A stretch of 64,000 nucleotides of DNA, from NCBI GenBank assembly GCA_947184155.2, contig CAMXCT020001116.1, positions 1 through 64,000 on the forward strand, written 5' to 3'. The translations under genes were made by a program, and so were the position numbers. The notes below the pieces were generated by a model. The model had not been told where the DNA came from. It searched no databases and saw only the letters and a list, made by a program, of their open reading frames with translations. This stretch comes from Cladocopium goreaui (lineage: Eukaryota; Sar; Dinophyceae; Suessiales; Symbiodiniaceae). Numbering within the stretch: position 1 is the stretch's first letter; each line of letters begins with the position of its first letter. This document shows, piece after piece, positions 7,712-62,385 of the stretch.

Positions 7712-8029
7712 TTAGAATGGCATTGCAAGTGGTGCTGGTGGAGGAGTTGCCGATGGAGTTTTGAAGGAAGTCTCGCACGAAATGCGTTTTTGAGAGATAG
7801 CAGATGCACGAAACCCTATGTTTTTCCATACAAAGTCCGTCCCCGAACCTCGATGATCTACCTCTGCGGTGCGACGGTTGCGAGACGGTCTCGTGTGTGG
7901 TCGGATCATGCTCGGATCATGCTCGGATCGGTTCCGCATTGTAAATGGGGTTTCAACTGTTTTTCGTGCATGTGCGGTCGACAGAATTCCATTGTGATTT
8001 GCAACTGTAGGATCGTCCCCGCATTGTAC
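7712..8029. repeat. Partial copy of the 409 bp repeat, left flank of the hairpin block
   Basis: Starts ATGGCATTGCAAGTGGTGCT and contains the landmarks CTCGCACGAAATGCG, CCTCGATGATCTACC and TCGGATCATGC, as in the array at 16741-17950. Homology stops at CCCGCATTGTA near 8029, where the T-rich start of the hairpin block begins. Confidence 0.85.
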
Positions 8030-8039
8030 CCTGAGCATC

Positions 8040-8200
8040 GGATATTGATTACAATCAATAAACTTCCTATTTTTCTAATTGATTTTGATTCAATTGATTT
8101 TTTTGATTTAATTGATTTTTTTAGTTTTGAATCAATTGATTTTTGTATTGATTTTTTTTTGATTTGGGATATTGATTTTGGGGGTTGAAACTTTTGATCC
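8040..8200. repeat. ATTGATTTTTT repeat
   Basis: A T-rich stretch of ATTGATTTT and TCAATTGATTTTT units just inside the left border of the hairpin block. It precedes the first reading frame and may be leader sequence. Confidence 0.7.
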
Positions 8201-8342
8201 TTTTTTTTGGTGGCTGCCAGCTGTTTTGGCTCTCAGCTGTTGGAAAAAAGATTTAGAAAAAATAGGTAACTCCTGCCTTGAAAAAGGCTTGTGCCTCGAA
8301 AAAGGAGACTGCCTTGAAAAAGGAGAGTGCCTTGAAGAAGGC

Positions 8343-9416
8343 ATGGCTGGCAAAGGGGGTGCCAGACATTTCAGCAAACCTCTGATAGACCAGGGGTTGC
8401 TGTACCAAGTCTTTGCTGAACACAAGGACTTGGTATTTAATTTGAAAGGGTATGAATTGTTGTCGAGAAATTCTGCCCACAACCCCTTAGCCATGCATCA
8501 AGTTTTGCCCCTCATTGATGCTTTGGTAGACTTGGAAAGTTCAGCTGAAATTCATGCCCAGACAATGAGATCAGCTTTGCTGCATCTCATTACTAGGGAG
8601 CCTGAGATGAATACCAGCGACTACAATGGTAGTGTCTTTGTAAATCTGAGAGCTGACAGGATTTCAGTGGTACTGCACCATGTCAGAAGGCTGGTAAGGG
8701 CAAAGACAATGCCCAGCAGTGTCATTGGTAGCCTGACAGCTACTCAATTTAAAGAGCTCAACAAGACCTTGAAAAAGGTGGTGTTGAGAGATGTGCCCCA
8801 GGAAGATGCCTTGAAAAAGGATGAGGGCCAGAAAGCTGGAAGCAGTAAAGACACCTTGAAAAAGGTGCCCCAGGGAAATGCCTTGAAAAAGGATGATGGC
8901 CAGAAAGCTGGAAGCAAAGAGACCTTGAAAAAAGTAAGCACAGAGAAAAAGAACACATCCTTGAAAAAGGTAAAGAAGGAAATTTTGAAGAAAAAAGAGA
9001 GAACCTTGAAAAAGGGCGACAGCCCCTTGAAAAAGGAAGCTGTAGAAAATGCCATAGTGCCAAAGGGAAGGTCATTAAAGGCCAGAGTGAGTGATGTCTC
9101 CCTGGACTCTGATGGCTTCCCCAAGGTTTTGGCCAGCCCACAGAAAGGGGCAAGCCCACCAAGGTTGTGGAAGAAAAAGAGGGGCAACTTTCAGCCACAA
9201 GCTTCTGCAGAAGTGCATGGTGGTTTGAAAGATGCCATGGGTGTCTTGAAAAAGCCATCTGCCAAACAGGCCTCCTTGAAAAAGGAAAAGTCTAAAAAAC
9301 CAGCCTTGAAAAAGGTTGCTAAGAATGAAGCCTTGAAAAAGGTTGAAGGCACAGAGAGAAAGCCTTGGGAAAAAATTTTAAGACCACTGCCAAGAACCCT
9401 GAAAGGTCTTATTTGA
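8343..9416 (+). CDS. Lys-rich protein with LKK repeats, unknown function
   Basis: 357 codons from the ATG of MAGKGGARHF; the frame is open upstream to about 8172 through several LEKG units, so the true start could be earlier. The first 140 residues look like a folded domain without Lys runs (SKPLIDQGLLYQ, VLPLIDALVDLES, VLHHVRRLVRAK). From about residue 140 the protein is a low-complexity linker with some fourteen LKK blocks, each encoded by one hairpin copy. The frame ends at TLKGLI, but a protein-like sequence continues in another frame from 9365, so this is probably the front part of a longer, frameshifted protein. I do not recognise the family. Confidence 0.6.
   Translation: MAGKGGARHFSKPLIDQGLLYQVFAEHKDLVFNLKGYELLSRNSAHNPLAMHQVLPLIDALVDLESSAEIHAQTMRSALLHLITREPEMNTSDYNGSVFVNLRADRISVVLHHVRRLVRAKTMPSSVIGSLTATQFKELNKTLKKVVLRDVPQEDALKKDEGQKAGSSKDTLKKVPQGNALKKDDGQKAGSKETLKKVSTEKKNTSLKKVKKEILKKKERTLKKGDSPLKKEAVENAIVPKGRSLKARVSDVSLDSDGFPKVLASPQKGASPPRLWKKKRGNFQPQASAEVHGGLKDAMGVLKKPSAKQASLKKEKSKKPALKKVAKNEALKKVEGTERKPWEKILRPLPRTLKGLI
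8852..8867 (+). repeat. Hairpin, 6 bp arms CACCTT/AAGGTG
   Basis: CACCTTGAAAAAGGTG, in frame in the coding region at 8343-9416, where it reads TLKKV. Confidence 0.9.
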
Positions 9417-9589
9417 CTGGCAGGTTTTCCAAAGATCAAGACAAATTCTTGATTGTAGAGGTGACAAAGAAGATGAGCCTCCAATATAGGTGGATCATCG
9501 ACAGGATCAAAGACTCACTGGAGAAGGAGCACATTACCAAGCATGAGGCCATCCAGATGAGAGAAAGTTTATGTTTTCAGCACCCTTGA
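9365..9589 (+). pseudogene. Frame-shifted C-terminal part of the upstream LKK protein
   Basis: It overlaps the previous frame and carries an ordered, protein-like sequence: KFLIVEVTKKMS, YRWIIDRIKDSLEKEHITK, EAIQMRESLCF. Together with the upstream frame it would form one protein; the shift falls near 9355-9370, at a degenerate hairpin (CCTTGGGAAAAAA). It ends QHP-stop, with the stop made by the TGA of a hairpin copy at about 9592. The alternatives are programmed frameshifting or an assembly error in the A-run. Confidence 0.55.
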
Positions 9590-9728
9590 AAAAGGCAGCC
9601 ACAAACACAAAAACCTTGAAAAAGGTATGGATCCTGGCAGCACCCTTGAAAAAGGGTACCTCTGCATGTACATAGCTCCCTTGAAAAAGGGTACCTCTGC
9701 ATGTACATAGCTCCCTAGGTATGTACAT
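9583..9728 (+). repeat. Hairpin cluster with 35 bp tandem duplication
   Basis: Four hairpins follow the end of the reading frame, including ACCCTTGAAAAAGGGT at 9642-9657 (6 bp arms) and CCCTTGAAAAAGGG at 9678-9691. A unit of about 35 bp consisting of one hairpin plus CTCTGCATGTACATAGCTCC occurs twice in tandem, so here hairpin and flank were duplicated together. Confidence 0.85.
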
Positions 9729-9879
9729 AGTTTTGGATATATGAGGTGTGTTTGTTGAAAAAATGGTCCCACCAAAGGGGAATGTGGTTTAACACCTAAA
9801 TGGGTTACCCCTGAAAGTTGGAAGTTTTGTCTTTGTTTCTGTTGGTTAGTAACCTGTATGTGCCCTGCAGCTAACTTGG

Positions 9880-10090
9880 CTCATGCATGACCATGTCACT
9901 GCACAAACACACACATGCACACTTACACAGTTCAACAGCACAGCACATGTATGGTAGGACAATAGATGCACACACACAACTGCACAGACACAACTGCACA
10001 GCACATGCATGTATGGTAGGACATATAGCCACAACATAGTCACAGCATAGTCACAGCACTACATAGTCACAGCACTACAACCCACAGCTT
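9880..10090. repeat. CACA/CATG-rich degenerate repeat
   Basis: Imperfect repeats of ACAACTGCACAGCACATGCA, ATGTATGGTAGGACA and CACAGCATAGT between two reading-frame groups. No coding signal. Confidence 0.7.
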
Positions 10091-10231
10091 AGCCTTTTGT
10101 AGTTGTAGCTGTGCCCACACAGAGTTTGAAAAAATTCTTTTCAGGTTTGAAAAAACCAAACCACACAGAGTTTGGAAAAACTTCAGGTTTGAAAAAACCA
10201 ACCCACCTGGGGTGGTCCACTTGAAAAAGTG

Positions 10232-10636
10232 ATGCCCCCCAAGAAGGATTCACTTGAAAAAGTGAACAACAAGGGAAGGCAGGCCATGAGTGGCACTACT
10301 TCCCAAGCCAGGAGGCAGGCCAGGGAGGTTCTGCAATGGACTTCCCTGGCCATGGCAGACCCCCCTGCTACCTCCTCAGCTTCTCTGCAGGAGAAGGAAG
10401 AAGCCTTGAAAAAGGCATTGGCTTCTGTGGAGAAGCAGAAAGCTGAAGCTCTTGAAAAAGAGCATGAGGAGGAGGACGCCTTGAAAAAGGTTGAGCATGC
10501 CCTGGAGACCCATTCTGCCAGAGGGAAGAATGGGCCCAGGAGCAGGTCTCTGAGCAGGGCCCGCCTCACTCCCAGGGAGGAGGTGGCAAAGAAGGAAGCC
10601 CTCAGGGAGGGCCGCATGTCCACCTGGAGAGGCTGA
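10232..10636 (+). CDS. Ala/Glu/Lys-rich protein, upstream part of the HAD-like protein
   Basis: 134 codons from MPPKKDSLEK, the first ATG after a hairpin. A GTG in the same frame lies just upstream. The sequence is charged and probably helical (SLQEKEEALKKALASVEKQ), and hairpins give SLEKV, ALKKA, ALEKE and ALKKV. It runs out of frame near 10600, where the next frame (HLERLKEASDPSKRAASRG) takes over. I regard it as the N-terminal extension of the HAD-like domain that follows. Confidence 0.5.
   Translation: MPPKKDSLEKVNNKGRQAMSGTTSQARRQAREVLQWTSLAMADPPATSSASLQEKEEALKKALASVEKQKAEALEKEHEEEDALKKVEHALETHSARGKNGPRSRSLSRARLTPREEVAKKEALREGRMSTWRG
10249..10266 (+). repeat. Hairpin, 7 bp arms TTCACTT/AAGTGAA
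   Basis: TTCACTTGAAAAAGTGAA. The usual CC/GG pairs are replaced by CA/TG, and pairing extends to seven bases. A shorter sister copy is at 10218-10231. Confidence 0.92.
10448..10463 (+). repeat. Hairpin, 6 bp arms GCTCTT/AAGAGC
   Basis: GCTCTTGAAAAAGAGC. A T-A pair replaces the usual C-G next to CTT/AAG. It reads ALEKE in the frame at 10232-10636. Confidence 0.92.
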
Positions 10637-11172
10637 AGGAGGCCAGTGACCCCAGCAAAAGGGCAGCCTCCAGAGGTCCCTTGAAAAAGGGAAAGAACCA
10701 GAGCCAGGCATCCAGCTCCTTGAAAAAGGAGGCAGAGAAGCCATGTGTGGTGCTGGACTGGCACAATACCCTTGAAAAAGGGAACAAGATGCCAGAAGCC
10801 AGCCTGCAGGCTCTGGAGCAGCTGCTGACTGTTGTGGATGTCCACATCATCAGCTGGGTGGGATCTGAGGACAGGTTTGAAAAAACCATGGACCAAATCC
10901 CAAAGCTGCTGGGCTCCACCTTGAAAAAGGTGAAGTCCTACAGGTGCACCTATGCCTTCACTGGGCATGACTCCAAAGTGGACTGGGCATGCCACTTTGG
11001 AGCCCTGCGCATCATGGATGACAACCCAGAGGTCATCAATGAGGCCAACTCCTGGGGCCTCAAGGCCTACCAAATTGGTAGGGGGGGCTACTGGCAGCTT
11101 GCAGATGCAGTAGCTCAGTTCATGGTGGACCTGCCTGGTCTGAAGCCATGGACTGAGGAGGAAGAGCCTTGA
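10621..11172 (+). CDS. HAD-like phosphatase-fold protein with altered catalytic motif
   Basis: The frame is open through HLERLKEASDPSKRAASRG and continues to EEEEP-stop. Motif I is CVVLDWHNTLE: the first HAD aspartate is present, but the second (DxD) is His. A motif II-like segment is VDVHIISWVGSE; motifs III/IV are seen as a Lys-rich stretch (LKKVKSYRCTYAFTGHDSK) and then ALRIMDDNPEVINEANSWG. The order and spacing fit a small HAD domain of about 130 residues. Because the acid/base Asp is replaced, hydrolase activity may be reduced or lost. No ATG opens this frame before residue KM at 10789, so it depends on the frame at 10232. The stop lies inside a hairpin. Confidence 0.62.
   Translation, partial: HLERLKEASDPSKRAASRGPLKKGKNQSQASSSLKKEAEKPCVVLDWHNTLEKGNKMPEASLQALEQLLTVVDVHIISWVGSEDRFEKTMDQIPKLLGSTLKKVKSYRCTYAFTGHDSKVDWACHFGALRIMDDNPEVINEANSWGLKAYQIGRGGYWQLADAVAQFMVDLPGLKPWTEEEEP
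10677..10692 (+). repeat. Hairpin, 6 bp arms TCCCTT/AAGGGA
   Basis: TCCCTTGAAAAAGGGA. It reads PLKKG. A second 6 bp copy with arms CTCCTT/AAGGAG follows at 10716-10731. Confidence 0.9.
10874..10887 (+). repeat. Hairpin variant GGTTT/AAACC
   Basis: GGTTTGAAAAAACC keeps the GAAA loop and perfect pairing, although two inner pairs differ from the consensus. The same variant occurs near 10145 and 10187. It shows that the paired arm, not a fixed sequence, is what is kept. Confidence 0.85.
10917..10932 (+). repeat. Hairpin, 6 bp arms CACCTT/AAGGTG
   Basis: CACCTTGAAAAAGGTG within the HAD-like frame, reading TLKKV between the middle and last motifs. Confidence 0.9.
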
Positions 11173-11265
11173 AAAAGGCATCCTCCCCCCCCCTTGAAAA
11201 AGGGGCCAAACAAACATGATGCACAAAAGCCTTGAAAAAGGCTCAAAAACCCTTGAAAAAGGGTT
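11166..11265 (+). terminator. Four tandem hairpins at the end of the HAD-like frame
   Basis: Within 100 bases: GCCTTGAAAAAGGC (11166-11179, containing the stop TGA), CCCCTTGAAAAAGGGG (11190-11205), AGCCTTGAAAAAGGCT (11228-11243) and AACCCTTGAAAAAGGGTT (11248-11265, 7 bp arms). Every arm is perfectly paired with different outer bases. The position right after a coding end suggests a role in 3' processing or termination, but this is inference; eukaryotic genes do not normally use such hairpins. Confidence 0.5.
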
Positions 11266-11719
11266 AATTAATTTGCATGCATGTTTCACCTAGTGTGTTG
11301 GCCACCCCCCCAATGAAAAAACAAAGTAGTATAAATCAACTAACCAAAGTGTTCTAAATTGTTTAAATGGTTCATTGTTGTTTCTGTTGACATGGGGGGG
11401 TGGCCAATTTTTGCACAGCAGAGACCTGCCTGGCCAACATGGCCAGGCAAATATATGGTGAAAAAAACAGTTAAATAAATATGATTATATATATATATAT
11501 TTATTTAATTAATACAGTAAATATAATGTAAGTATTTAAATTTATTTATTTAGATTTTTGAAACTATATTTATTTATATTTTTTGAATATATATTTTTAA
11601 AAAAACTATATAATTATATATAGTTTCAAATATTTTTCTTAAAGTATTTAGTTATATTTTTTGAATATATTACAGAACAAATATATAAAGAAAGTTATTT
11701 AATAATTAAGAACTATAAT

Positions 11720-11746
11720 AAGGGTTTAGGGTTTTAGGGTTCAGGG
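11720..11746 (+). repeat. Short TTTAGGG-like interstitial telomeric motif
   Basis: AGGGTTTAGGGTTTTAGGG followed by TTCAGGG: three to four degenerate TTTAGGG units. TTTAGGG is the telomere repeat reported for dinoflagellates and plants. The run is short enough to be chance in AT-rich DNA. Confidence 0.45.
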
Positions 11747-11825
11747 ATAAGAATACCTTTTAAAGTAAACATACATGTATATATCTATATTTGTTTTAAA
11801 AAAAACTATCTTTCAATAAAAAAAA

Positions 11826-12330
11826 ATGAACTCCACAGTTGAAGTTTTTTTTTTGAAAGGGCCTACCTTCACTGAACTCTCCAGTTCAAATTTCTGTTGG
11901 AAGGACCCAAATTCACTCAACTCCCCAGTTTTTTTTGAAAGGACCCAACTTCACTTCACTGAACTCCCCAGTTGAAGTTTTTTTTTGGAAGGACTTCACT
12001 TCACTGAACTCCCCAGTTCAAAATTTCATTTGGAAGTACTTCACTTCACTGAACTCCCCAGTTGAAGTTTTTTTGGAAGTACTTCACTTCACTGAACTCC
12101 CCAGTTGAAGTTTTTTTGGAATGATTTCACTTCACTGAACTCCCCAGTTGAAGTTTTTTTGGAATGATTTCACTTTACTGAACTCCCCAGTTGAAGTTTT
12201 TTTGGAATGATTTCACTCAACTGAACTCCCCAGTTTAAAGTTTTATTTGGAAGGGCTCCACTCCACTAAACTCCCCAGCTCAATTTTTTTGGAAGGACTT
12301 CACTCCACTGAACTCTCCAGTTCAAGTTTT
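11826..12330. repeat. AACTCCCCAGTTGAAG minisatellite
   Basis: About eleven copies of a unit of roughly 40-50 bp: CACTGAACTCCCCAGTTGAA, then a T-run, then TTGGAAGGACTTCACTT. AACT-CCCC-AGTT in each unit is itself a 4 bp hairpin, with variants such as CCACAG and CTCCAG in the loop. Confidence 0.9.
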
Positions 12331-12483
12331 GTTTAGACAGTTTCAAGACCAATGGCCTTTCAGATTGATAGTTTTTATTTTTTGAGAACACAGTTCAAAA
12401 ATTCAAACTCTGTCTTCTCCCTTTATGAATGAACTTCTCTTGGATGAATTATTTTATTTAAACATTTTTTTATTAAAAAAAAA

Positions 12484-12620
12484 CACAAAAAATGAAAAGT
12501 GATGAAAAGTGATGAAAAGTGATTAAAAGTGATGAAAAGTGATGAAATCATCACTTTTCATCACTTTTCATCACTTTTCATCACTTTTCATCACTTTTCA
12601 TCACTTTTCATTTTTTGTGA
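12484..12620. repeat. Long palindrome built from a 10 bp tandem repeat
   Basis: The left arm is CACAAAAAATGAAAAGTGATG followed by GATGAAAAGT units (five, one mutated to GATTAAAAGT). The right arm is six TCACTTTTCA units followed by TTTTTTGTG. The arms are complementary over about 60 bases each, including the non-repetitive CACAAAAAAT tips, with the centre at GATGAAATCATC near 12545. Confidence 0.92.
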
Positions 12621-13341
12621 TTTTTGGATTCCAAATAGTTTTGGTTGTCAAAAAAAATGAAATTTGAATGATTTCTTTGGTAATAAAAATATTCCCTAAA
12701 ACATTTTTCTTGATAATAAACATAAAAGTTTTTGGAAATAAATTGTTTTGAAATATATATATATAAATATATTTTTTAAAAACCATGAAACAAATTCACA
12801 AAAACACAAATATATATATAAGAATTATAAAACATATTTTGTGAAAATATATGATATTGTTTTTTATTGTTTTGTTTTGTAAATAAATTGAAAAATAAAA
12901 TATACAATTATACAATTATTATTGAAAAATATTATATATTAGAGGTATTAAACAATGTGAAAATTTAGAATATGGTTTACTTATTGTTTTGGTTTGTAAA
13001 TTAATTGAAAAATAAAATATAAAATTATATATTCAATCAAACATGAATATGCCCTCTGAAAATTATTATTTTAATGTATATTTTTTTTGATTTTCAAAAT
13101 ATTTTTTAATTAAAAAATTTGGCATGAATATGTAAAATGTATTTGGGAACAAAATATGAAAACACCGACACAAATCTATGAAATAGATATAACATAAAAA
13201 TGAAACATTAAAACAAAATGAAATCTTAAATGATTATAAAAACATAGATTATATAAATTGTTCCACAAAACCGATATACATGTCTGCCTCTGTAGCTGTT
13301 TTGGATTTGTCAGTTGTAGTTTCAGTAGCAAACCTTATAGG

Positions 13342-14484
13342 ATGAAGAGGCCAGCTATGGCAATGAAAGCCTTGAAAAAGGTCAAGCAGAAAGGATCCTT
13401 GAAAAAGGACCAGGAAGGATCCTTGGAAAAGGACCAGACACTGAATAAGGGCAACTTGAAAAAGTTGGGGGAGCTCAGCCTGAAGGATAAAATCCTGAAG
13501 GCAGCTGAAGAGCACCCAGATAATGAGGAGACCCAAGCCCTGGTGCTTCAGGAATCCATGTCACCTGTTGACAAAAGCAATGCATGGAACCAGCACCAAG
13601 TCCACTTGAAAAAGAAGGGCAATGAATCCTTGAAAAAGGAGTTCGATGAGATGGACAAGAAGGGCAAGGGGCTGAGCACTGCTTTGTTCTTGCTGAAGAA
13701 GAACAAAAGCTTGTTTGCCAGTGTCTCCAAGGGTGTCAGCCAGGAAGTCTCCTTGAAAAAGAGAGAGAAATGGCTGACCCAGAAGGAAGTGGATGCCAAG
13801 TGGACTGATCAGGAACTTGAAGTCCACTTGGCATCAGGTCGGCTGATCTACAGAGAAGCTGGCCACAACGTCTGGGAATACCAGGACACCCAGGACATTG
13901 AGAAGACTGTTGCAGGTAAGAGGTCCCTGCAATACCAGTTTGGGCAGGAGTATGAGCTGGAGGAAGGGGATGAGGCAGAGTGGTGCAAAATGTTGGAAAA
14001 GGATTTGCACAGCATTTTGCTGGGAGGCCTTGAAAAAGGCAAAGGCTCTGCCAAGGGCTCTGGCCTTGAGAAAGGCAAAGGCAAAGGTAAAGCCAGGGCC
14101 AAGCCCAAGCCCCAGCCCCTTGAGGATGCTGATGAGGAGCCTATGGACCTGGCAACTGCCTTGAAAAAGGCAAAGAAGACCAGGGACATGCTCACCAGCA
14201 CCTCCAGCAACTTTGAGGAAGCCTTGAAAAAGGTGGAAAAGAGCCCTTACCTGAGCAAGCAGTCCTTCAAGGACAAGCAAGGTGTTCTGGATGGCCTCCA
14301 TGAAATGGCGAAGAAAACAAAAAAACTCCTTGAAAAAGGAGAAAAGAACAAAGTGGAGGTTCTGAAGGAGCACATCCTGGAGGCATGTGCTTGCATGAAG
14401 GATGCCAAGGAGGAAGCCAAAGAGCTTGTACAGATTAGCTTTAAAGCTGTGAGCAAGGCTGCTTCCTCCAAGGCCAAGAAATGA
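13342..14484 (+). CDS. Lys-rich protein MKRPAMAMK with LKK/LEKG repeats, unknown function
   Basis: 380 residues, an uninterrupted frame from ATG (MKRPAMAMKALKKV) to a TGA that touches the next hairpin. The central part looks ordered (LSLKDKILKAAEEHPDNEE, VDKSNAWNQHQVHLKK, KWLTQKEVDAKWTDQELE, LIYREAGHNVWEYQDTQD). The rest is Lys/Gly-rich, with hairpin-encoded LKK and LEKG blocks. The C-terminal third is probably a long helix (LLEKGEKNKVEVLKEHILEA, CACMKDAKEEAKELV). No transposase or nucleic-acid-binding motif is visible, although the charge would suit DNA or RNA binding. It is the best preserved frame of the block. Confidence 0.7.
   Translation: MKRPAMAMKALKKVKQKGSLKKDQEGSLEKDQTLNKGNLKKLGELSLKDKILKAAEEHPDNEETQALVLQESMSPVDKSNAWNQHQVHLKKKGNESLKKEFDEMDKKGKGLSTALFLLKKNKSLFASVSKGVSQEVSLKKREKWLTQKEVDAKWTDQELEVHLASGRLIYREAGHNVWEYQDTQDIEKTVAGKRSLQYQFGQEYELEEGDEAEWCKMLEKDLHSILLGGLEKGKGSAKGSGLEKGKGKGKARAKPKPQPLEDADEEPMDLATALKKAKKTRDMLTSTSSNFEEALKKVEKSPYLSKQSFKDKQGVLDGLHEMAKKTKKLLEKGEKNKVEVLKEHILEACACMKDAKEEAKELVQISFKAVSKAASSKAKK
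13452..13467 (+). repeat. Hairpin, 6 bp arms CAACTT/AAGTTG
   Basis: CAACTTGAAAAAGTTG: A-T in place of C-G, with further paired bases. It reads NLKKL. Confidence 0.92.
14326..14341 (+). repeat. Hairpin, 6 bp arms CTCCTT/AAGGAG
   Basis: CTCCTTGAAAAAGGAG in the LEKG frame of the coding region at 13342-14484. Confidence 0.9.
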
Positions 14485-14550
14485 TCCTTGAAAAAGGATC
14501 TAAGTCCTGGGACACCTTGAAAAAGGTATCTACATCCTTGAAAAAGGTTA
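14483..14550 (+). terminator. Three hairpins immediately after the stop codon
   Basis: GATCCTTGAAAAAGGATC (14483-14500, 7 bp arms) starts inside the stop codon of the upstream frame. ACCTTGAAAAAGGT (14514-14527) and TCCTTGAAAAAGGT (about 14535-14548) follow. The arrangement resembles 11166-11265. A function in transcript ends is possible but not shown. Confidence 0.5.
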
Positions 14551-14852
14551 ATTCAGCCTGTAGAATAGCTGTGCTTTTGAAGCTTGTGGAAAAGCTGGTT
14601 TTTGAAAGGCAGTGAAAATCTGTCGATCATGAATCTACCATATGAGGCAAAGAAAAAAGTTGGAAGCTGCCCTGCATGAGTGGGGGTTAAGGCCACAGGG
14701 AAGCATTGCATGTCAGTGGTAGCTTTGCTTTGGCTCAAATAGTAGAGAAAAAATAGGAAATATTGTTTTTCACCCCTGCACCTTGAAAAAGGTTTGTCAT
14801 ACACCCCTTGAAAAAGGAGCTTTGACACACCCCTTGAAAAAGGAGGTTTGCA
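14551..14852 (+). other. Spacer with three hairpins upstream of the next frame
   Basis: No reading frame on the plus strand. Three hairpin copies lie at 14780-14846 (ACCTTGAAAAAGGT, then two CCCCTTGAAAAAGGA), the last about ten bases before the ATG at 14853. Confidence 0.7.
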
Positions 14853-15185
14853 ATGGCCAAGAGACTCAGGGGCTTTCACCTTGAAAAAGCCTTGCAAGTC
14901 CCAAAGAAGGTGCCTAAAAAGACAGTTGGTAGTGCATTGGCTACTGCTTTACTGTCTTTGTGGTGCCATGGCAAAGTGTCAGGTACCACCATGAGGTGGC
15001 TGGCTGAGAGTGCACTTCTGGATGGGGCACAGCATGATGAGCTTGTCAAAATTGCAAAATGTGGTTCCCATGGGCTTCACCCTGGCAACATACACAGGGA
15101 TCTCATGGCAACCTTTTGCAAAGGCTTGGACATGCCAACCCCCTTTGAACTTGAAAAAGTTCCATGTAAAAACTCAAGACCTTGA
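14853..15185 (+). pseudogene. N-terminal fragment of a broken large protein
   Basis: 110 codons from MAKRLRGFHLEKALQ. It has ordered sequence (GSALATALLSLWCHGKVS, MRWLAESALLDGAQHDELV, GNIHRDLMATFCKGLDMP). It ends RP-stop, where the stop is the TGA inside a hairpin at 15179-15192; the protein clearly goes on in another frame from the same hairpin. Confidence 0.6.
15147..15162 (+). repeat. Hairpin, 6 bp arms GAACTT/AAGTTC
   Basis: GAACTTGAAAAAGTTC, reading ELEKV. Confidence 0.92.
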
Positions 15186-15949
15186 AAAAGGATGAAGACA
15201 CAGCTGCCATGCTGCTGCCTCACCAGATGTTTGCCAAGCTTTTCACCTATAATGCCTTTGAAGTTATTTTCCCACCTGAAAAAGTGGAATCCTTTTGGAA
15301 CCAAGCCCTTGAAAAAGGTGATGGCAGGTTCAAAAACTACCCAGCCCTGGAGGGCAGGATGTGGAAAAAAACTACACTACCTCTGTTCTTGCATGGAGGT
15401 GGTGTAGAATACCAGACTAGAGATAGTCTGATGATCTACTCTTGGGGGAGCCTGTTGCAACAAATGTCAAGCTTGTCTTCACATTTTTACATTGCATCCT
15501 TCCCCAAGAGCTGCACTGTGCCAGAGACATGGGACACCATGCAAGAATGGATCTGTTGGTCATTTGCAGCAATGCAAAATGGCTACCATCCATCTCATGA
15601 TCCCTGGGCAAAACCTTTGAAAAAAGATTCCCCTTTTTTCCTTGAGAAAGGAAAACCTCTGGCAAAAGGACTGAAGGGTGTCTTTTGGTCCATACAGGGG
15701 GACCATGAGCTTTTCTCAAACTCCCTGAAGTTACCACATTGGGCCAGCAAGGGCCCCTGTTGGGAATGCTCTTGCAGCAAAACCTTTGAAAAAGGGAAAA
15801 GCATGTGGTACAAAACCCTTGAAAAAGGGAAGCAAGGCTGGAAAGTTTCATCCCATGAGGAGTGCTTGAAAAAGCCTAAACGCACACATGCTTTGTTCTC
15901 TGGGGTGATTCCAGGCTTGAGCACCAAAATGGTGAGCGGTGAGGGGTGA
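15182..15949 (+). pseudogene. Middle fragment of the broken large protein
   Basis: The frame opens within the hairpin that ends the previous one and has no ATG of its own at the join. Features: MLLPHQMFAKLFTYNAFEV, PLFLHGGGVEYQTRDSLMIY, SWGSLLQQMSSLSSHF, and a Cys pair in KGPCWECSCSKTFEKG. It ends KMVSGEG-stop. Similar HGxGV...SLMxxSWGSLL proteins are, from memory, common anonymous proteins of symbiodinian genomes; their function is unknown to me. Confidence 0.6.
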
Positions 15950-16706
15950 TTGCCTCCACATTTTGTTTTGCAAAGGTGTGCTGGGCCACCTTCTGGGATC
16001 TATCATTCACTATTTTCTTTATTATTATGATGGTGTTGGTGTTGCCCAGAAAGTGCCCCCTGAAAAGAGGCTAGGTACAATTTTTGAAGCTGTACAGAAA
16101 GAGTATGTCTTGAAAAAGATATCTCAAAGGGTGACAAACCTTCGACTCAGCATGGTTTGCAACCCCAAAGAGCCTCATAAGACCTTTGCTCAATTAGATT
16201 TGAAAGGCTCAGAAACCAAATGGTTTCTCCAAGCTTTTGCCCCAGTTCTGGCAGAGATTGTGTCTCTTGAAAAAGAGCATGAAGCAGCCATGCTGGATGC
16301 TGTGAATGACATGGCAGCTCTCATTCATTTGTTTGATGAAGCTGATGTCTTCTTGACAAATGATGAGTGGCTACAGGCCATGGAGCTGGGAGACAGCTTT
16401 TCCACCCAGTACAGCCATCTCTCAGGCTGGGCCCTTGAAAAAGGGAGAACCTTGTTTAACATTGTGATGAAACATCACACATTCCAACACTTGCTTGAGA
16501 ATGCAAAGTTTTTAAATCCAAAAACCCACTGGACATTTAGTTCAGAGGATTTTGTTGGAAAAATGAGCATTCTCACAGCAAGTGTTAGTCCTGGGGTTAG
16601 CTCCACAAGGTTGAGCCTTAAGGTAGCTCCTAAATACAGGATCTTGTTTCACTTCTTGCTGACCAGAGAAGGGATGCAGGAAGCTGGTATGAACATTGAT
16701 CCTTGA
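15939..16706 (+). pseudogene. C-terminal fragment of the broken large protein
   Basis: It overlaps the previous frame by a few codons in a third frame. Sequence: LLGSIIHYFLYYYDGVGVAQ, TKWFLQAFAPVLAEIVSLEK, MAALIHLFDEADVFLTNDEW, LFNIVMKHHTFQHLLENAKF. It ends MNIDP-stop, with the stop provided by the hairpin at 16700-16713. With the two preceding pieces it makes one protein of about 610 residues, broken twice. No catalytic motif is recognised. Confidence 0.6.
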
Positions 16707-16740
16707 AAAAGGACACAGCTACATGAGTGGATGAGGATGC

Positions 16741-17956: not shown

Positions 17957-18200
17957 GGTTGCTTCCTGCTTTGGCTGCAAACGTAATACTATTGTCTTTT
18001 GCAGCTGGACTTCGTAAATCGTATTGGAGTGGCTGCATGAAGGCTGCGACAGTGATTTGTCAGCAGATTTCCTCCATTTTGGCGCTAGTAATTTTCCTTT
18101 TAAAAATCCTTTTAAAAAGTGCTTCAAAATCGTCTTTTTTTCGCTCTGGCGTCGAGATCCGGTTTTGGAGCTACAATTTTCCGACGCCGTTGCACGTAGG
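17957..18200. repeat. Shared tail following the 409 bp array
   Basis: GTAATACTATTGTCTTTTGCA, GTATTGGAGTGGCTGCAT, GTGATTTGTCAGCAGATTT and TTGGCGCTAGTAATTTTCC all recur in the same order at 63700-63930, after a different tandem array. It is a dispersed repeat of about 240 bp. Confidence 0.9.
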
Positions 18201-18360
18201 TTTAGAGCAGTGAAGTGTGGGGCGTGAAGAGTGCAGTGTGAAGTGTGCAGTGTGAAGGAAGCAGTGGGAAGTGAGAAGTGTGAAGTGTGGAGTGTGAAGT
18301 TTAAGTTTGGAGTGTGAAGGAAGCAGTGAGAAGTGACAAGTGTGAAGTGTGGAGTGTGAA
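18201..18360. repeat. GTGTGAAGT minisatellite, first block
   Basis: 7-10 bp units GTGTGAAGT, GTGTGGAGT and GTGAAGGAAGCAGT. The same repeat resumes at 18640. Confidence 0.9.
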
Positions 18361-18379
18361 GTAATTCCATCGTTCGTGC

Positions 18380-18600
18380 GGTTGTATGTTGATAACCTCC
18401 ATAAAATGACCACCGTGACTTTGATTAGTGTGACCATACCTGATGTGACTGTGACTGTGACTATTCTGATCATGACTACTGTGACCATAGATACTATGAC
18501 AAAGACTACTTTGACAATGACCGTTGTGGCTGTAACTGTAGTGACAATGAGTATTGTAACTGTTTGGACTGGCCCCTTTTTAGGTAATGACAGTGGGAAG
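18380..18600. repeat. Degenerate TGTGACTGTGAC repeat
   Basis: Imperfect 6 bp units (GTGACT, ATGACT, TTGACA) between the two blocks of the GTGTGAAGT minisatellite. Confidence 0.7.
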
Positions 18601-18639
18601 TAGAAGTGACGGCATTAGTGTCCCAAGAATAAATGACTA

Positions 18640-19245
18640 GAAAGTGAAGTGTGGACTGTGAAGTGTGGAGTGTGAAGTTTGGAGTGCAAAGAGTGCAGTG
18701 TGAAGTGTGGAGTGTGGAGTGTGAAGTGTGAAGTTTGGAGTGTGAAGGAAGCAGTGAGCAGTAAGAAGTGTGAAGTGTGGACTGTGAAGTGTGAAGTGTG
18801 AAACGTGGAATGTGAAGTGCGAAGTGAGTGTGAAGTGTGAAGTTTGGAGTGTGAAGGAAGCAGTGAGCAGTGAGAAGTGTGAAGTGTGGACTGTGAAGTG
18901 TGAAGTGTGAAATGTGGAGTGTGAAGTGCGAAGTGAGAAGTGTGAAGTGTGAAGTGTGGAGTGTGAAGTGCAAAGTGAGAAGTGTGAAGTGTGAGGTTTG
19001 GAGTGTGAAGTGTGGAGTGTGAAGTGTGGAGTGTGAAGTGCGAAGTGAGAAGTGTGAAGTGTGAAGTTTGGAGTGTGAAGGAAGCAGTGAGAAGTGAGAA
19101 GTGTGGACTGTGAAGTGCGAAGTGTGAAGTGTGGAGTGTGAAGTTTGGAGTGTGAAGGAAGCAGTGAGAAGTGAGAAGTGTGAAGTGTGGACTGTGGAGT
19201 GTGAAGTTTGGAGTGCGAAGAGTGAAGTGTGAAGTGTGGAGTGTG
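18640..19245. repeat. GTGTGAAGT minisatellite, second block
   Basis: Higher-order units of GTGTGAAGTGTGGAGTGTGA, often followed by GGAAGCAGTGAGAAGTGAGA. The minus-strand open frames (TLHTSHFTLHTPNF type) are the repeat read in frame. Confidence 0.93.
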
Positions 19246-19399
19246 AAGACTTTGCTTCGTCTCTCGCTGAAAAAAAAAACCGCTTGTCGAGGGAAGGACA
19301 CGCTCGGGACAGGCTGGCCTTGAACTATAGGTCATTTATTCTTGGGAAACTTCCGCCGCCGGCTTGCCCGGGTCTATGTTAGCATGATTCAACATGAGT

Positions 19400-47600: not shown

Positions 47601-50600
47601 CTGGCCCTCCTGCTGAATGACTTTTCCCGGTCCGTGCCACTTGCCGGCACCTTGTCTAGTCGATCTGGGGTTCCTAGACCAGTACATGACTGATTGTCCT
47701 GGGAGATATGGACCTCTTACGGGGCATGATCTTCTGAGCAGACGGTGCAAATGCAACGATCATGTCTGGTGTCAAGGATGCCTCCCAACAGCTTAAAGGC
47801 TCTCTTGCTGAAAAGGAAGGGCGTGTGACCCGGCACTACTTCGATGGCCAGCCACAGTCTGTTGCTGGTGGGATTGGATTGCAGGGGCAACAGCACACGC
47901 TTTTCACTGGTCAGTGACTGGTTGTTTCCAAAACGGAATTTGACACTACTGTGCATGCTCTTTACGTTGGATCGAAGGCTTTGTGGCATCTGTGTCATGA
48001 GATGTCCTAGGTTCTTAGTTCCTATGCAGCACCTGATCTAGACATCCTGCAATGGCGCTCCAAGCTGTCGCTGTCAGTGGTTCACGGACCGCCCCTTGTG
48101 GGGTTTAGGCTCCGCTGCCAGTGTGAAAGTGATATGAACCACTAACACACTGGCAGCTGTTTCCCAAAAGATGAATTCACCTTGTCCCCAAAGATGTTGA
48201 TACCTATGAATCCCTGTCCAATTCCTTTTTAACCACAGTAGTCAATTGGAATCCCTGTCACAACCAGAAGATACTGTTGGGAGACGCCTGTCTCCAAAAC
48301 TGGTTTTGGATCCCCGTCCCACCAATGCCGCAGCTAAGCTATGGCTTTTGTCACACGGAGCGCTCCCTCTCCACTCCTCACTTATGGCGCTCGGGCCTAG
48401 ATGATATGGCCGCGAGGTCAAACATCTCAGTACATAGCAGCTCAAGTCAAGGCATGCTGTGACCCACATGGAATTGTTGACAGTTCACAGTCCCCTATCT
48501 AAGATGTACATACATACATACATACATACATACCTACCTACCTACCTACCTACAGACAGACAGACAGACAGACACACATCACATCACATTACATTACATT
48601 ACATTACATTACACACACAGAGACATACATTACAGTAGAATAGAGTAGAATAGAATAGAATACAATACATTACATTACATTGCATACCATACATACCATA
48701 CATACATACCATACATACATACCATGCATGCATGCATGCATGCATGCATGCATGCATACATCACATTACATTACATTACATCACATCACATTACATTACA
48801 TTACATACAGGCAGACAGACATACAGACAAACAGACAAACAAGACAGACAGTACATTACATTACATTACATTACATTTCATTACATTACATTGCATACAT
48901 ACATACATACATACACATACATATGTATATATATATATTTATATATCCATCCAATTATTTTTATATTTAGTTATTTATGTATATAATATATCATGAAAAT
49001 ATTCTATTATACTATACTATATTTTATTATATCAAATTGTATTAAACTCTCTTATATTGTATATTATATATTGTATATTATGTTCTTGCTTTATATATTA
49101 TATATTATATATTATTCATTAAATATTATTTTTTATAAATTATAATATATATTATGTTTTATATAATATATTATATATTATATACTATATATTAAATATT
49201 ATATATTAAATATTTTATATCATATATTATATGGTCATTATTTATTGTATATTATATATTATATAATTATTATATATTATATTATTATATAATTATTATA
49301 TGTTATTTATTATATGTATAATCTATTATACATTATATATCAAATATTATATATTATATATTATATGTCAAAAAAATATACTATGTATCAAATATTATAT
49401 CTTGTATCTTGTATATTATGTATCATATATTCTATATATTGTATATTATACATAGTATAATATGTTTTATATTATAGATTATATACTATATATTATATAT
49501 TATATATTATGTATTATACATGATATATTTTATATTATATATCAAATATTATAAATTACATATTGTATATTATATTTTATATATTATACATGATATATTT
49601 TATATTATATATCAAATATTATATATTGTATATTATATATTGTATATTATATATTATATATTATATATTATATATTATATATATAATATTATATACTATA
49701 TATTTTATATATACTTTATTTTACATATTATATATTCCATATTGTACCATATCATATCATATTATATTATACTATGTTGTACTATATATTATCTTATATT
49801 TTATCAAATTAAATTATAATATATTGTATCATATTGTATTTGATTTTATTATATTGTATTATATTTCATTATCTTATATTACATTATATATTACATCATG
49901 TATATACATATTATGAAAAAAAAGCTGCCAACATCCCTGGTAGAGACAGCCAAAAAAATCGCGGAAAAAAAATAAAAATGGAAAAAAACTAGCAGCATCC
50001 GCGGTAATAAAAAAAATGTGAAATCAGAAGAAAAACGCACCCAATAATAGCAACATCCGGGGTTTAAAAAAAAAAACGATAAACATCGAACATGTTTATC
50101 AACAACCGCAGTAGAAGCAGTAAAATCGAAAAAGAATGTTCTTTCTTTTTTCCCTGCACGGGGACAAGCATCTACCCTACGCAAAAACACAGCCTGCTAA
50201 CCTGCTTAGGAGCTCTCAGTTCAGCAATACACTCCAGGTTCCCTCGGTTCCCCAATTCTGAGCCTGGGCAGAACTTGGGCCCTGTCATTGTCTCAGCATA
50301 TTTCATTGGCGCTGCCTTGGTGTAGGATGCCTCGCCGGTCAGCAGGCAGCCGCCATCCTTGGTTTAGAGCTGTCATGGGATGGGACAAAGCAGTGGGATT
50401 GTTGGGCCAAAATGGTTTGGTTGTTCCAAAGAGCAATAGTGTTGCAACCTATTGGCAACCTACTCACGGGATTGTGGCCAGAGTACTTGAAACGGGTATG
50501 TTATGTTGCGAAATCGCGATACCCCTGTCACCCATGAAAATCTAGCTGCTAGCACAGGTGCAAAAATAATGGTCCCAGGATCCGGCCAAAAGGTGAAATG

Positions 50601-60499: not shown

Positions 60500-62385
60500 C
60501 AGAAAACGAAAATATTATATATTATATATGTATATTATATATATTATATATTATGTATAATATAAATATATTATATATTAAATATATTAAATATATTACA
60601 TATATTCTATATTACAATTTAAATATATTATATATTTTATATATAGTATATATTTGATATGTATATATATATTATATAAACAAAAAATAAATCAATTAAA
60701 TATATTATATATATTATATAGTTTATTTTCTGAAAGTATCATATATTATCTACTATTTATATATATAGTATATGATTTACATTTATATTGTGTATCGTAT
60801 GATATAGGATATATATATATATGTATTATATTTTATTTATATGTTTTATGTAATAACTATATTTTATATATCATATATACTGTATATGTTATATATATTT
60901 TATATTATAGATATATTGTAAATATTATATATTATTATGTATTTTTGATAAATGATATATATTATACATATTATATACATTATATATTATACAAATATTA
61001 AATATATATATATATAAATATATTATACATATTTTATATTTAATAAAGACAATATATATTAAATATATTATCTATATATATAATATTTTTAAAATTTTAT
61101 ATATATTATATATATATTTAAAAAAAAGAAATATCATATATTTTGTATAATTAAATATTATACATTTCATAGACATTTTATTTTATATATTACATATATT
61201 ATATATTGTAATTTTAATATTATCAATATTGTATATACTATAAATATAATATTCAGTCTATATATTTTTGATATATTATATATAAATTATATTCTATTTT
61301 ATATAAATTATATATTTTATATAATATATTTAAAATATTATATATATTATATTATATATTATATTACATATATTATATACATATTAGATACAATAAATAT
61401 AATGTATATTATATATATTATATTATAAATTATGTTTATATGTACATTGTATGATTTTTATATATCTGTATATTATATATATTATATATTATTTCTATTA
61501 TATATATTATATATATTAAATAATTTTAATTTATTAAATAAATTGAATATTAAATTTTATATATATTATATATATGATATTTTATATATATATCGTATAT
61601 ATTATATTGTATATATATATAGTAAATATTAGACAAGAATTTGATACATAATATATATATAATAAGAATAAAGTATATTATATTTTTTTATACATTATAT
61701 ATATTATATATTTCTTATATTGCTGAAATTGTAAATGTTATTTTTTGAAAAAATAATATATATAATATCTATTGTATTAATTTTAAATATAATATTTGTG
61801 ATATATATATATATTATCTTGTATATACATTTTACATTTTGTAAATTATAGATTTTGTATATTAAATATTCAATTTATATATATATATATTTATGTATTG
61901 TATATCTTATGGGTAATATATTTTTCATTTATATATATTATAAGAATATTATACTTTAGGTATTTTCAAAATTATATATATTTATATTATGAACATTATA
62001 TTTTTTATATTCTGTATAAAACATGAATATGTAAATTGTTTTTTTATTGTGTATATTTTAAGTTATATATATATATTATTTGAATATTATATACCATACA
62101 TAAAAAAAAATATTACAAATATATTATAGATATTAAATATTTTATATATATATATATTATATTATATATATTATATATTACACAATATTATGTATTATAT
62201 ATATATTATATATTTTTTAAAAAAAAATGTATATATTATATATATTAAATATAATACATATATTATATATATTATATATAATATATATTATATATGTATA
62301 TTTAATATAATATATATATATATACATTATATATACTATACATACTATATTCTCATATATTATATATATATATTCAAATAAGGTT
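60500..62385. repeat. Extreme AT-rich tract
   Basis: Nearly 1.9 kb of almost only A and T: ATATATTATATATTA with TTTTATATATA variants. G and C are rare, and no unit is fixed. Confidence 0.95.

Follow-up and report, generated by a model that had tools for sequence, protein, structure and literature searches.

Gene-strand arrays of GNRA-type hairpins in a terminal-inverted-repeat DNA transposon family of Cladocopium goreaui

Why should some eight kilobases of a dinoflagellate genome be filled with tiny hairpins that share a loop and differ in their stems? The stretch that raises this question comprises 64,000 nucleotides of Cladocopium goreaui (Symbiodiniaceae; GenBank assembly GCA_947184155.2, contig CAMXCT020001116.1, positions 1 to 64,000 of the forward strand), termed here the window, in which a reading made from the sequence alone had described a dense family of GAAA-loop hairpins with covarying arms. 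The segment that carries them is a transposon copy, a member of a family of terminal-inverted-repeat (TIR) DNA transposons, and the arrays may represent RNA hairpins maintained by selection.

Counted on both strands, the window has 72 occurrences of the string TTGAAAAA, compared with 7.2 in dinucleotide shuffles (maximum of 100 shuffles, 17), and 67 of the 72 occurrences fall within positions 8275-16713, all of them on the forward strand (antisense, 0). These 67 one-stranded occurrences bear out the family of about sixty GAAA-loop copies claimed in the sequence-only reading, although its membership requires revision: three of the 67 (at 12888, 12922 and 13005) are AT-rich, lie in a spacer and stand outside the hairpin family, and members with a GAGA or GGAA loop escape the string. 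The longer core CTTGAAAAAG (CTT-GAAA-AAG) is present at 56 sites in the segment, and the five hairpins originally quoted all lie at the positions given for them. The looser pattern CCTT-4-AAGG was counted in the element segment and in the part of the window that lies to its right (47,260 bp), the first 8 kb being outside the count, and was found 48 and 0 times, respectively. A search of the window against Rfam at the gathering threshold returned 0 matches.

The stems are paired well beyond the repeated core. At the TTGAAAAA sites the mean number of extra pairs beyond TT/AA is 2.61, compared with 1.39 when the right flanks are re-dealt (maximum of 2000 re-dealings, 1.78), so that the proposed check of flank complementarity against shuffled flanks placed the window above every re-dealing. 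Among 111 CTTGAAAAAG sites from three copies of the element (56 in the window, 38 in C295 and 17 in C82), Watson-Crick pairs at distances 0, 1 and 2 beyond CTT/AAG number 102, 79 and 46, respectively, compared with 77.5, 29.4 and 28.0 expected; further out there is no clear excess. This excess at the three pairs next to CTT/AAG supports the earlier contention that a repeated primary sequence cannot explain the covarying arms. In the C892 copy the outer pairs at distances 1 to 3 are Watson-Crick in 60, 55 and 47 of 67 sites (32, 20 and 19 expected). The pairing also exceeds what the encoded protein would impose, as assessed at 51 of the 56 window sites (36 coding and 15 outside the frames used, with the 5 sites at the segment edges omitted). 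At the 36 coding sites, 79 of 180 arm positions are paired, compared with a mean of 55.4 in 2000 synonymous redraws that kept the core (maximum 69), and the 15 sites outside the frames pair more (2.80 of 5 positions, versus 2.19 of 5 at the coding sites). The common factor of the sites is nucleotide pairing, not a peptide.

The transposon nature of the carrier is evident from its ends. The first 31 bases of the terminal repeat, with at most two mismatches, occur 112 + 107 = 219 times in the 1.17-Gb genome (reversed control, 0 + 0), and among the matches listed they often form inverted pairs approximately 4.7 to 13 kb apart. A 2-bp target duplication was seen by eye in all 12 copies with both flanks inspected. 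Two of these, C2112a and C2112b (L060, L061), lie one after the other on the same contig and have identical flanks, which suggests a segmental duplication that included the target; consequently, the independent cases number 11. In the window the terminal repeat is found only at 8029, the right end is absent, the reading frames are broken, and satellite copies flank the element on both sides. The window copy is 98.5% identical over 6.5 kb to the C335 copy, in an alignment reaching approximately position 16724, and C335 has the same left satellite flank. Reading frames define four genes, A1 to A4, all in the direction of the hairpins.

The array is a property of the family rather than of one copy. 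We examined 23 copies, namely 21 plus two further stretches (the first 9,940 bp of C4285 and the first 9,993 bp of C1185), and 22 of them carry arrays, each with about 20 to 130 hairpins. In 15 of the 21 copies one strand bears 19 to 108 GNRA tetraloop hairpins (arms of at least 5) and the opposite strand 0 to 2; the remaining six have 1 to 3. Five of these six (C1131, C1802, C2047, C293 and C336) carry pentaloop hairpins instead, in which the most frequent loops are GGAAA (17 to 29 per copy), GAAAA and GCAAA; GNRNA pentaloop hairpins were counted by strand in two of the five (45 versus 0, and 46 versus 2). C892, the sixth, is distinguished by TTT[GGAA]AAG hairpins, with a T-G third pair in 56 of 67 sites. 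C4285 has 87 hairpins versus 0 on the other strand, and C1185 has 9 versus 3, an array that may have decayed. The hairpin strand is the gene strand in 11 copies with a protein match, as well as in the window, C335, C295 and C73. Ten of the 21 copies, representing each lineage once or twice, have sense:antisense counts of GNRA and GNRNA hairpins together of 53:2, 44:6, 28:1, 128:1, 115:2, 58:3, 80:6, 54:2, 53:1 and 51:3; the corresponding shuffles average 2 to 4.2.

The loops vary by lineage within a narrow class. The lineages use GAAA (the window), GCAA/GAAA/GAGA, GGAA, GGAA over a fixed T-G pair, or a GNRAA pentaloop, with the first G and the last A nearly invariant. Type I loops are GAAA, with rare GAGA and GGAA, and type II loops are led by GCAA, GAAA, GAGA and GGGA; with repeated-flank sites removed, GNRA loops make up 70 of 80 in C82, 119 of 132 in C1247, 74 of 84 in C620 and 67 of 76 in C3113. 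Most loops thus have the stem-closed form G-N-R-A or G-N-R-N-A, a minority of GNYA loops in type II being the exception, and the GAAA loop, singled out earlier as a GNRA tetraloop, proves to be one member of a class found across copies. Since near-identical copies have loop types in common, the 23 copies are not independent cases but represent a handful of lineages. In the C82 copy (L036:5870-6380), a tandem array of hairpin units of approximately 18 bp alternates GCAA and GCCA loops, indicating that hairpins can also multiply by tandem growth.

Taken together, the gene-strand arrays, the loop class, the lineage-wide types, the paired stems free of fixed sequence and the gain of sites in place (described below) make selected RNA hairpins the best explanation, and we give an even chance to the reading in which they act as many binding sites for one element-matched putative factor. 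The RNA role that had been raised as a possibility thereby becomes the best-fitting one, given the sense strand, the GNRA/GNRNA loops and the pairing beyond the encoded protein. Under this RNA reading, the element's messages would carry stem-loop arrays that pair in RNA; the array would offer many sites to a single putative loop-reading RNA-binding factor, element-encoded or element-matched, that might tag, condense, localise or package the element's own messages; and factor and loop type would change together between lineages. A more tentative extension, possible but on balance doubtful, is that the loop types (GAAA; GCAA/GAGA; GGAA; wobble GGAA; GNRAA) amount to an RNA code that differs between lineages, with a co-evolving protein encoded by the element as its reader, and that they prevent cross-reaction among the lineages of a single genome, in the manner of packaging signals but outside RNA viruses. 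We found no published description of such hairpin arrays in a literature check that was partial and does not establish their absence.

Several results weigh against selected RNA hairpins. No binding factor was identified, and each type II copy has 8 or 9 GNYA loops, which fall outside GNRA rules. If pairing in RNA were strictly selected, G.U should outlast A.C, and this is seen in C73 and C892 and not in the pooled data: over the 10 copies above, observed/expected ratios at pairs 1 to 3 are 0.52 for G.U and 0.54 for A.C. The strong G.U signal is limited to those two copies (in C73, G.U:A.C is 15:0 at the first variable pair and 10:0 at the second), and one-sided changes between homologous hairpins give only a slight preference (8:4, 4:2, 7:4, 7:6 and 8:3). 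In favour of pairing in RNA, the next pair outward is Watson-Crick in 0.90 of cases beyond a G.U (n=21), 0.89 beyond a true pair (n=257), 0.46 beyond other mismatches (n=24) and 0.80 beyond an A.C (n=5). In ten pairs of close copies, stems and loops differ at 351 of 8283 positions and matched flanks at 474 of 10972 (p=0.80; stem 268/5992, loop 83/2291). The poorly aligned pair C620-C3113 dominates these figures, and a recount without it gives 83/6846 for stem and loop versus 154/9480 for flank; with unmatched flanks, hairpin columns are lower in five of six close pairs, the exception being C335-C391. As the pooled matched-flank comparison shows no difference, close-copy conservation is not counted as support. 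Between homologous hairpins both stem sides are unchanged in 129 of 177 cases from the window to C295 (69 of 158 at 9 nt out) and in 145 of 185 from C1131 to C293 (67 of 175 at 9 nt out), an excess to which anchoring of the alignment may contribute; stem changes on both sides end in a Watson-Crick pair in 8 of 16 cases in each comparison, about a third being expected by chance. The comparison in the direction from C892 to C73 left 0 usable hairpins under a filter requiring perfect pairs, and the overlap of hairpin positions between lineages in A4 is mostly not significant, with small numbers.

The strongest alternative, which we nevertheless consider unlikely, is a mutational drive without function, wherein fold-back template switching (quasi-palindrome correction) perfects near-palindromes around the core and copying between sites homogenises the core of each lineage. 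The arms are indeed mostly strict Watson-Crick, their pooled decay to G.U and A.C is alike, and correction of an arm would also yield replacement in place without a change of length; a passage of PMC6649704 links template switches to perfect inverted repeats. Such a process, however, should not depend on strand, loop or transposon family, whereas the strand bias is nearly complete, the loops are of the GNRA class, and CCTT-4-AAGG is confined to the element within the region counted. Moreover, among the events listed for six close-copy comparisons, hairpin differences are point changes or small gaps, and clusters of at least 3 differences are gaps or lie in repeat arrays, except for one 3-difference site between C82 and C1247.

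Somewhat less probable still is a role at the level of DNA, in which element DNA, while single-stranded or supercoiled, would fold into the hairpins (for example in the non-template strand during transcription, or in an intermediate of transposition), and these would be bound or protected in that state. Stable DNA tetraloops of the GNNA form are known, and the 8 or 9 GNNA sites per type II copy that include C at the third position would be accommodated, as would the pooled lack of preference for G.U over A.C and the fact that the carrier is a DNA transposon. On the other hand, the arrays are confined to the transcribed gene region and the gene strand, the fixed T-G pair of C892 counts as a wobble only in RNA, being a mismatch in DNA, and the pentaloop forms fit the GNRNA fold of RNA.

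The origin of individual sites bears on a further alternative, in which every hairpin was inserted on its own as a palindrome, in the manner of Rickettsia palindromic elements or introners. The genes of the window and of C295 are 63-69% identical, and of 54 window hairpins (arms of at least 4) the core is kept in C295 in 32 and missing in 22. Half of the latter (11) have the same length in C295, 7 coincide with a gap and 4 lie in large gaps. The alignment of empty sites that had been suggested, made here between copies of the element, gave a divided answer, and the proposal that an 8-base core was inserted together with an inverted copy of its flank is not well supported. In four of the 11 same-length sites, 5 or 6 of the 10 core letters are changed, and these are true gains or losses; one site departs from the core by 3 letters, and six depart from it by 1 or 2, probably through decay. 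The hairpin at 10874..10887 is among the window hairpins absent from C295, with no change of length there. In an A4 alignment of the window with 23 of its 47 homologs, the hairpin at 16110 stands where several homologs keep x-Q-x-x-P-T-R, again at unchanged length. Near residue 56 of P0037, in the six copies covered, a single site is occupied according to the copy by a CTTT-closed GAAA loop, by GAAA or GGAA over T-G, or by a GGAAA pentaloop, without change of length among them. The replacement in place within A4 indicates that insertion is not the rule in conserved coding sequence, although it is a possible origin for hairpins in linkers. Separate insertion is favoured by the 11 core-less sites at gaps and by the tandem growth in C82; set against the 11 without length change, the A4 replacement and the single orientation of all sites, it appears very improbable. 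Equally remote is selection for an L-x-K peptide motif with the hairpin as a by-product of its codons: the coding sites, in two frames (26 and 10), do all read L-x-K (36 sites; 26 LKK and 10 LEK) and the A1 and A2 homologs retain LKK/LEKG-rich stretches, but this explanation is already largely refuted by the stronger pairing outside the frames and the excess over synonymous redraws.

Among known systems, the phage lambda boxB site recognised by N protein is a GNRA/GNRNA hairpin bound by a small basic peptide. It resembles the present hairpins in its short stem and GNRA-like tetra- or pentaloop; boxB, however, occurs as one or two sites near a promoter, whereas dozens run through the genes here, and no such peptide was identified. 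CACTA-like (CMC) transposons likewise have TIRs, a short target duplication, short subterminal repeats and several genes, and the combination of a TIR with a target duplication of 2-3 bp is found here as well (219 repeats, 2 bp), but the transposase of the present family was not recognised by Pfam or fold search. Hairpin arrays are not known in the CACTA-like group. The dispersed packaging signals of RNA viruses, as portrayed for human parechovirus in PMC5431903, are also dozens of short stem-loops in coding sequence, on one strand, with a common loop and variable stems, a description that the arrays share if the gene strand is taken to stand for the RNA strand. Packaging signals are in addition recognised by a cognate coat protein and lead to packaging of the RNA; the carrier here is a TIR DNA transposon, and the loops belong to one RNA fold class whose type changes between lineages of one genome. 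Rickettsia palindromic elements, mentioned in PMC6649704, and other in-gene palindromes are likewise tolerated within coding sequence; they are insertions, unlike the present sites, which are often gained in place, in one orientation and with a GNRA-class loop. The introner elements of Amoebophrya, also a dinoflagellate, similarly tie hairpin-forming inverted repeats to mobile DNA; according to PMC7789003 they are introns with inverted and direct repeats, whereas the present hairpins are found both within open reading frames and in the stretches separating genes.

If the RNA reading is correct, an RNA recognition code with many sites, typed by lineage, can be written into the coding sequence of mobile DNA, something hitherto described for the genomes of RNA viruses. 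The family would then offer a natural set of RNA-protein specificities that evolve side by side within a single nucleus, and a way into the question of how the transposons of dinoflagellates distinguish their own messages; it would also be a system in which to study how dozens of sites are rewritten by selection once a recognition loop has changed. If the arrays are instead mutational, they reflect an unusually strong, strand-biased and loop-specific fold-back process.

Table 1. Location of the transposon copy, its genes and its hairpins in the window
Feature	Positions	Strand	Remarks
Truncated TIR DNA transposon copy in ~408-bp tandem satellite	8029..16735	+	Right terminal repeat missing; right limit approximate
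Left terminal inverted repeat	8029..8065	+	Present in inverted orientation at the two ends of C82, C335 and other copies
GAAA-loop hairpin array	8273..16713	+ (sense)	56 CTTGAAAAAG cores; 0 of these in AT-rich spacer ~11280-13340
Gene A1, GGARHFSKP family	8343..9592	+	Frame broken in window copy; 24 homologs; helical N-terminal domain
Gene A2	10229..11172	+	Frame broken in window copy; 11 homologs
Example hairpin, arms 7, loop GAAA	10249..10266	+	
Example hairpin with T-A third pair, arms 5	10874..10887	+	In gene A2
Example hairpin, arms 7, loop GAAA	11248..11265	+	Between gene clusters
Gene A3, lysine-rich	13342..14484	+	Open frame; relative in C73 copy
Example hairpin, arms 7, loop GAAA	14483..14500	+	
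Gene A4, conserved	14853..16706	+	Frame broken in window copy; 47 homologs of last part; tblastn matches in other copies

Protein homologs were sought for A1, A2 and A4. One A4 homolog is labelled Skav210820, which we take to denote Fugacium kawagutii, a species placed in the Symbiodiniaceae in the taxonomy. A4 is presumably the transposase; none of 23 protein entries, A4 included, had a Pfam match above the cut-off, so that no DDE transposase was recognised. The A1 model has a mean predicted local distance difference test (pLDDT) score of 88.5 and that of the last part of A4 a score of 76.9, and neither has a PDB fold match with E up to 0.001. Inspection by eye suggests HAD-phosphatase-like motifs in A2, for which Pfam gave 0 matches above the cut-off and the PDB sequence search nothing significant; a scan of viral contigs for loci related to A2 found none. 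Open reading frames in the C73 copy (L044:7643-8146, reverse strand) and the C82 copy (L036:7223-7684, forward strand) contain two H-x-[ST]-like motifs and by eye may resemble 2H phosphoesterases, with no match in Pfam.

Loci with two CCTTGAAAAAGG close together were considered as candidates for relatives of the array. The 2 viral and 23 prokaryote loci obtained contain no more than 12 TTGAAAAA and 8 CTTGAAAAAG apiece; they are sparser than the window and were rejected as relatives. Moorena cyanobacteria (L005, L024) have several regularly spaced CCTTGAAAAAGG, seemingly part of a tandem repeat with no relation to the array.

The AT-rich spacer of the element contains a tandem array with a unit of approximately 43 bp (11848-12331) and a 70-nt inverted repeat, 97% complementary, built from a 10-bp tandem unit in both directions (12478-12625). 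Directly to the right of the satellite lies a dense 14-bp tandem array (18182-19335), and islands of very low G+C content are found at 49001-50000 (0.116) and 61001-62000 (0.081), compared with 45% for the window.

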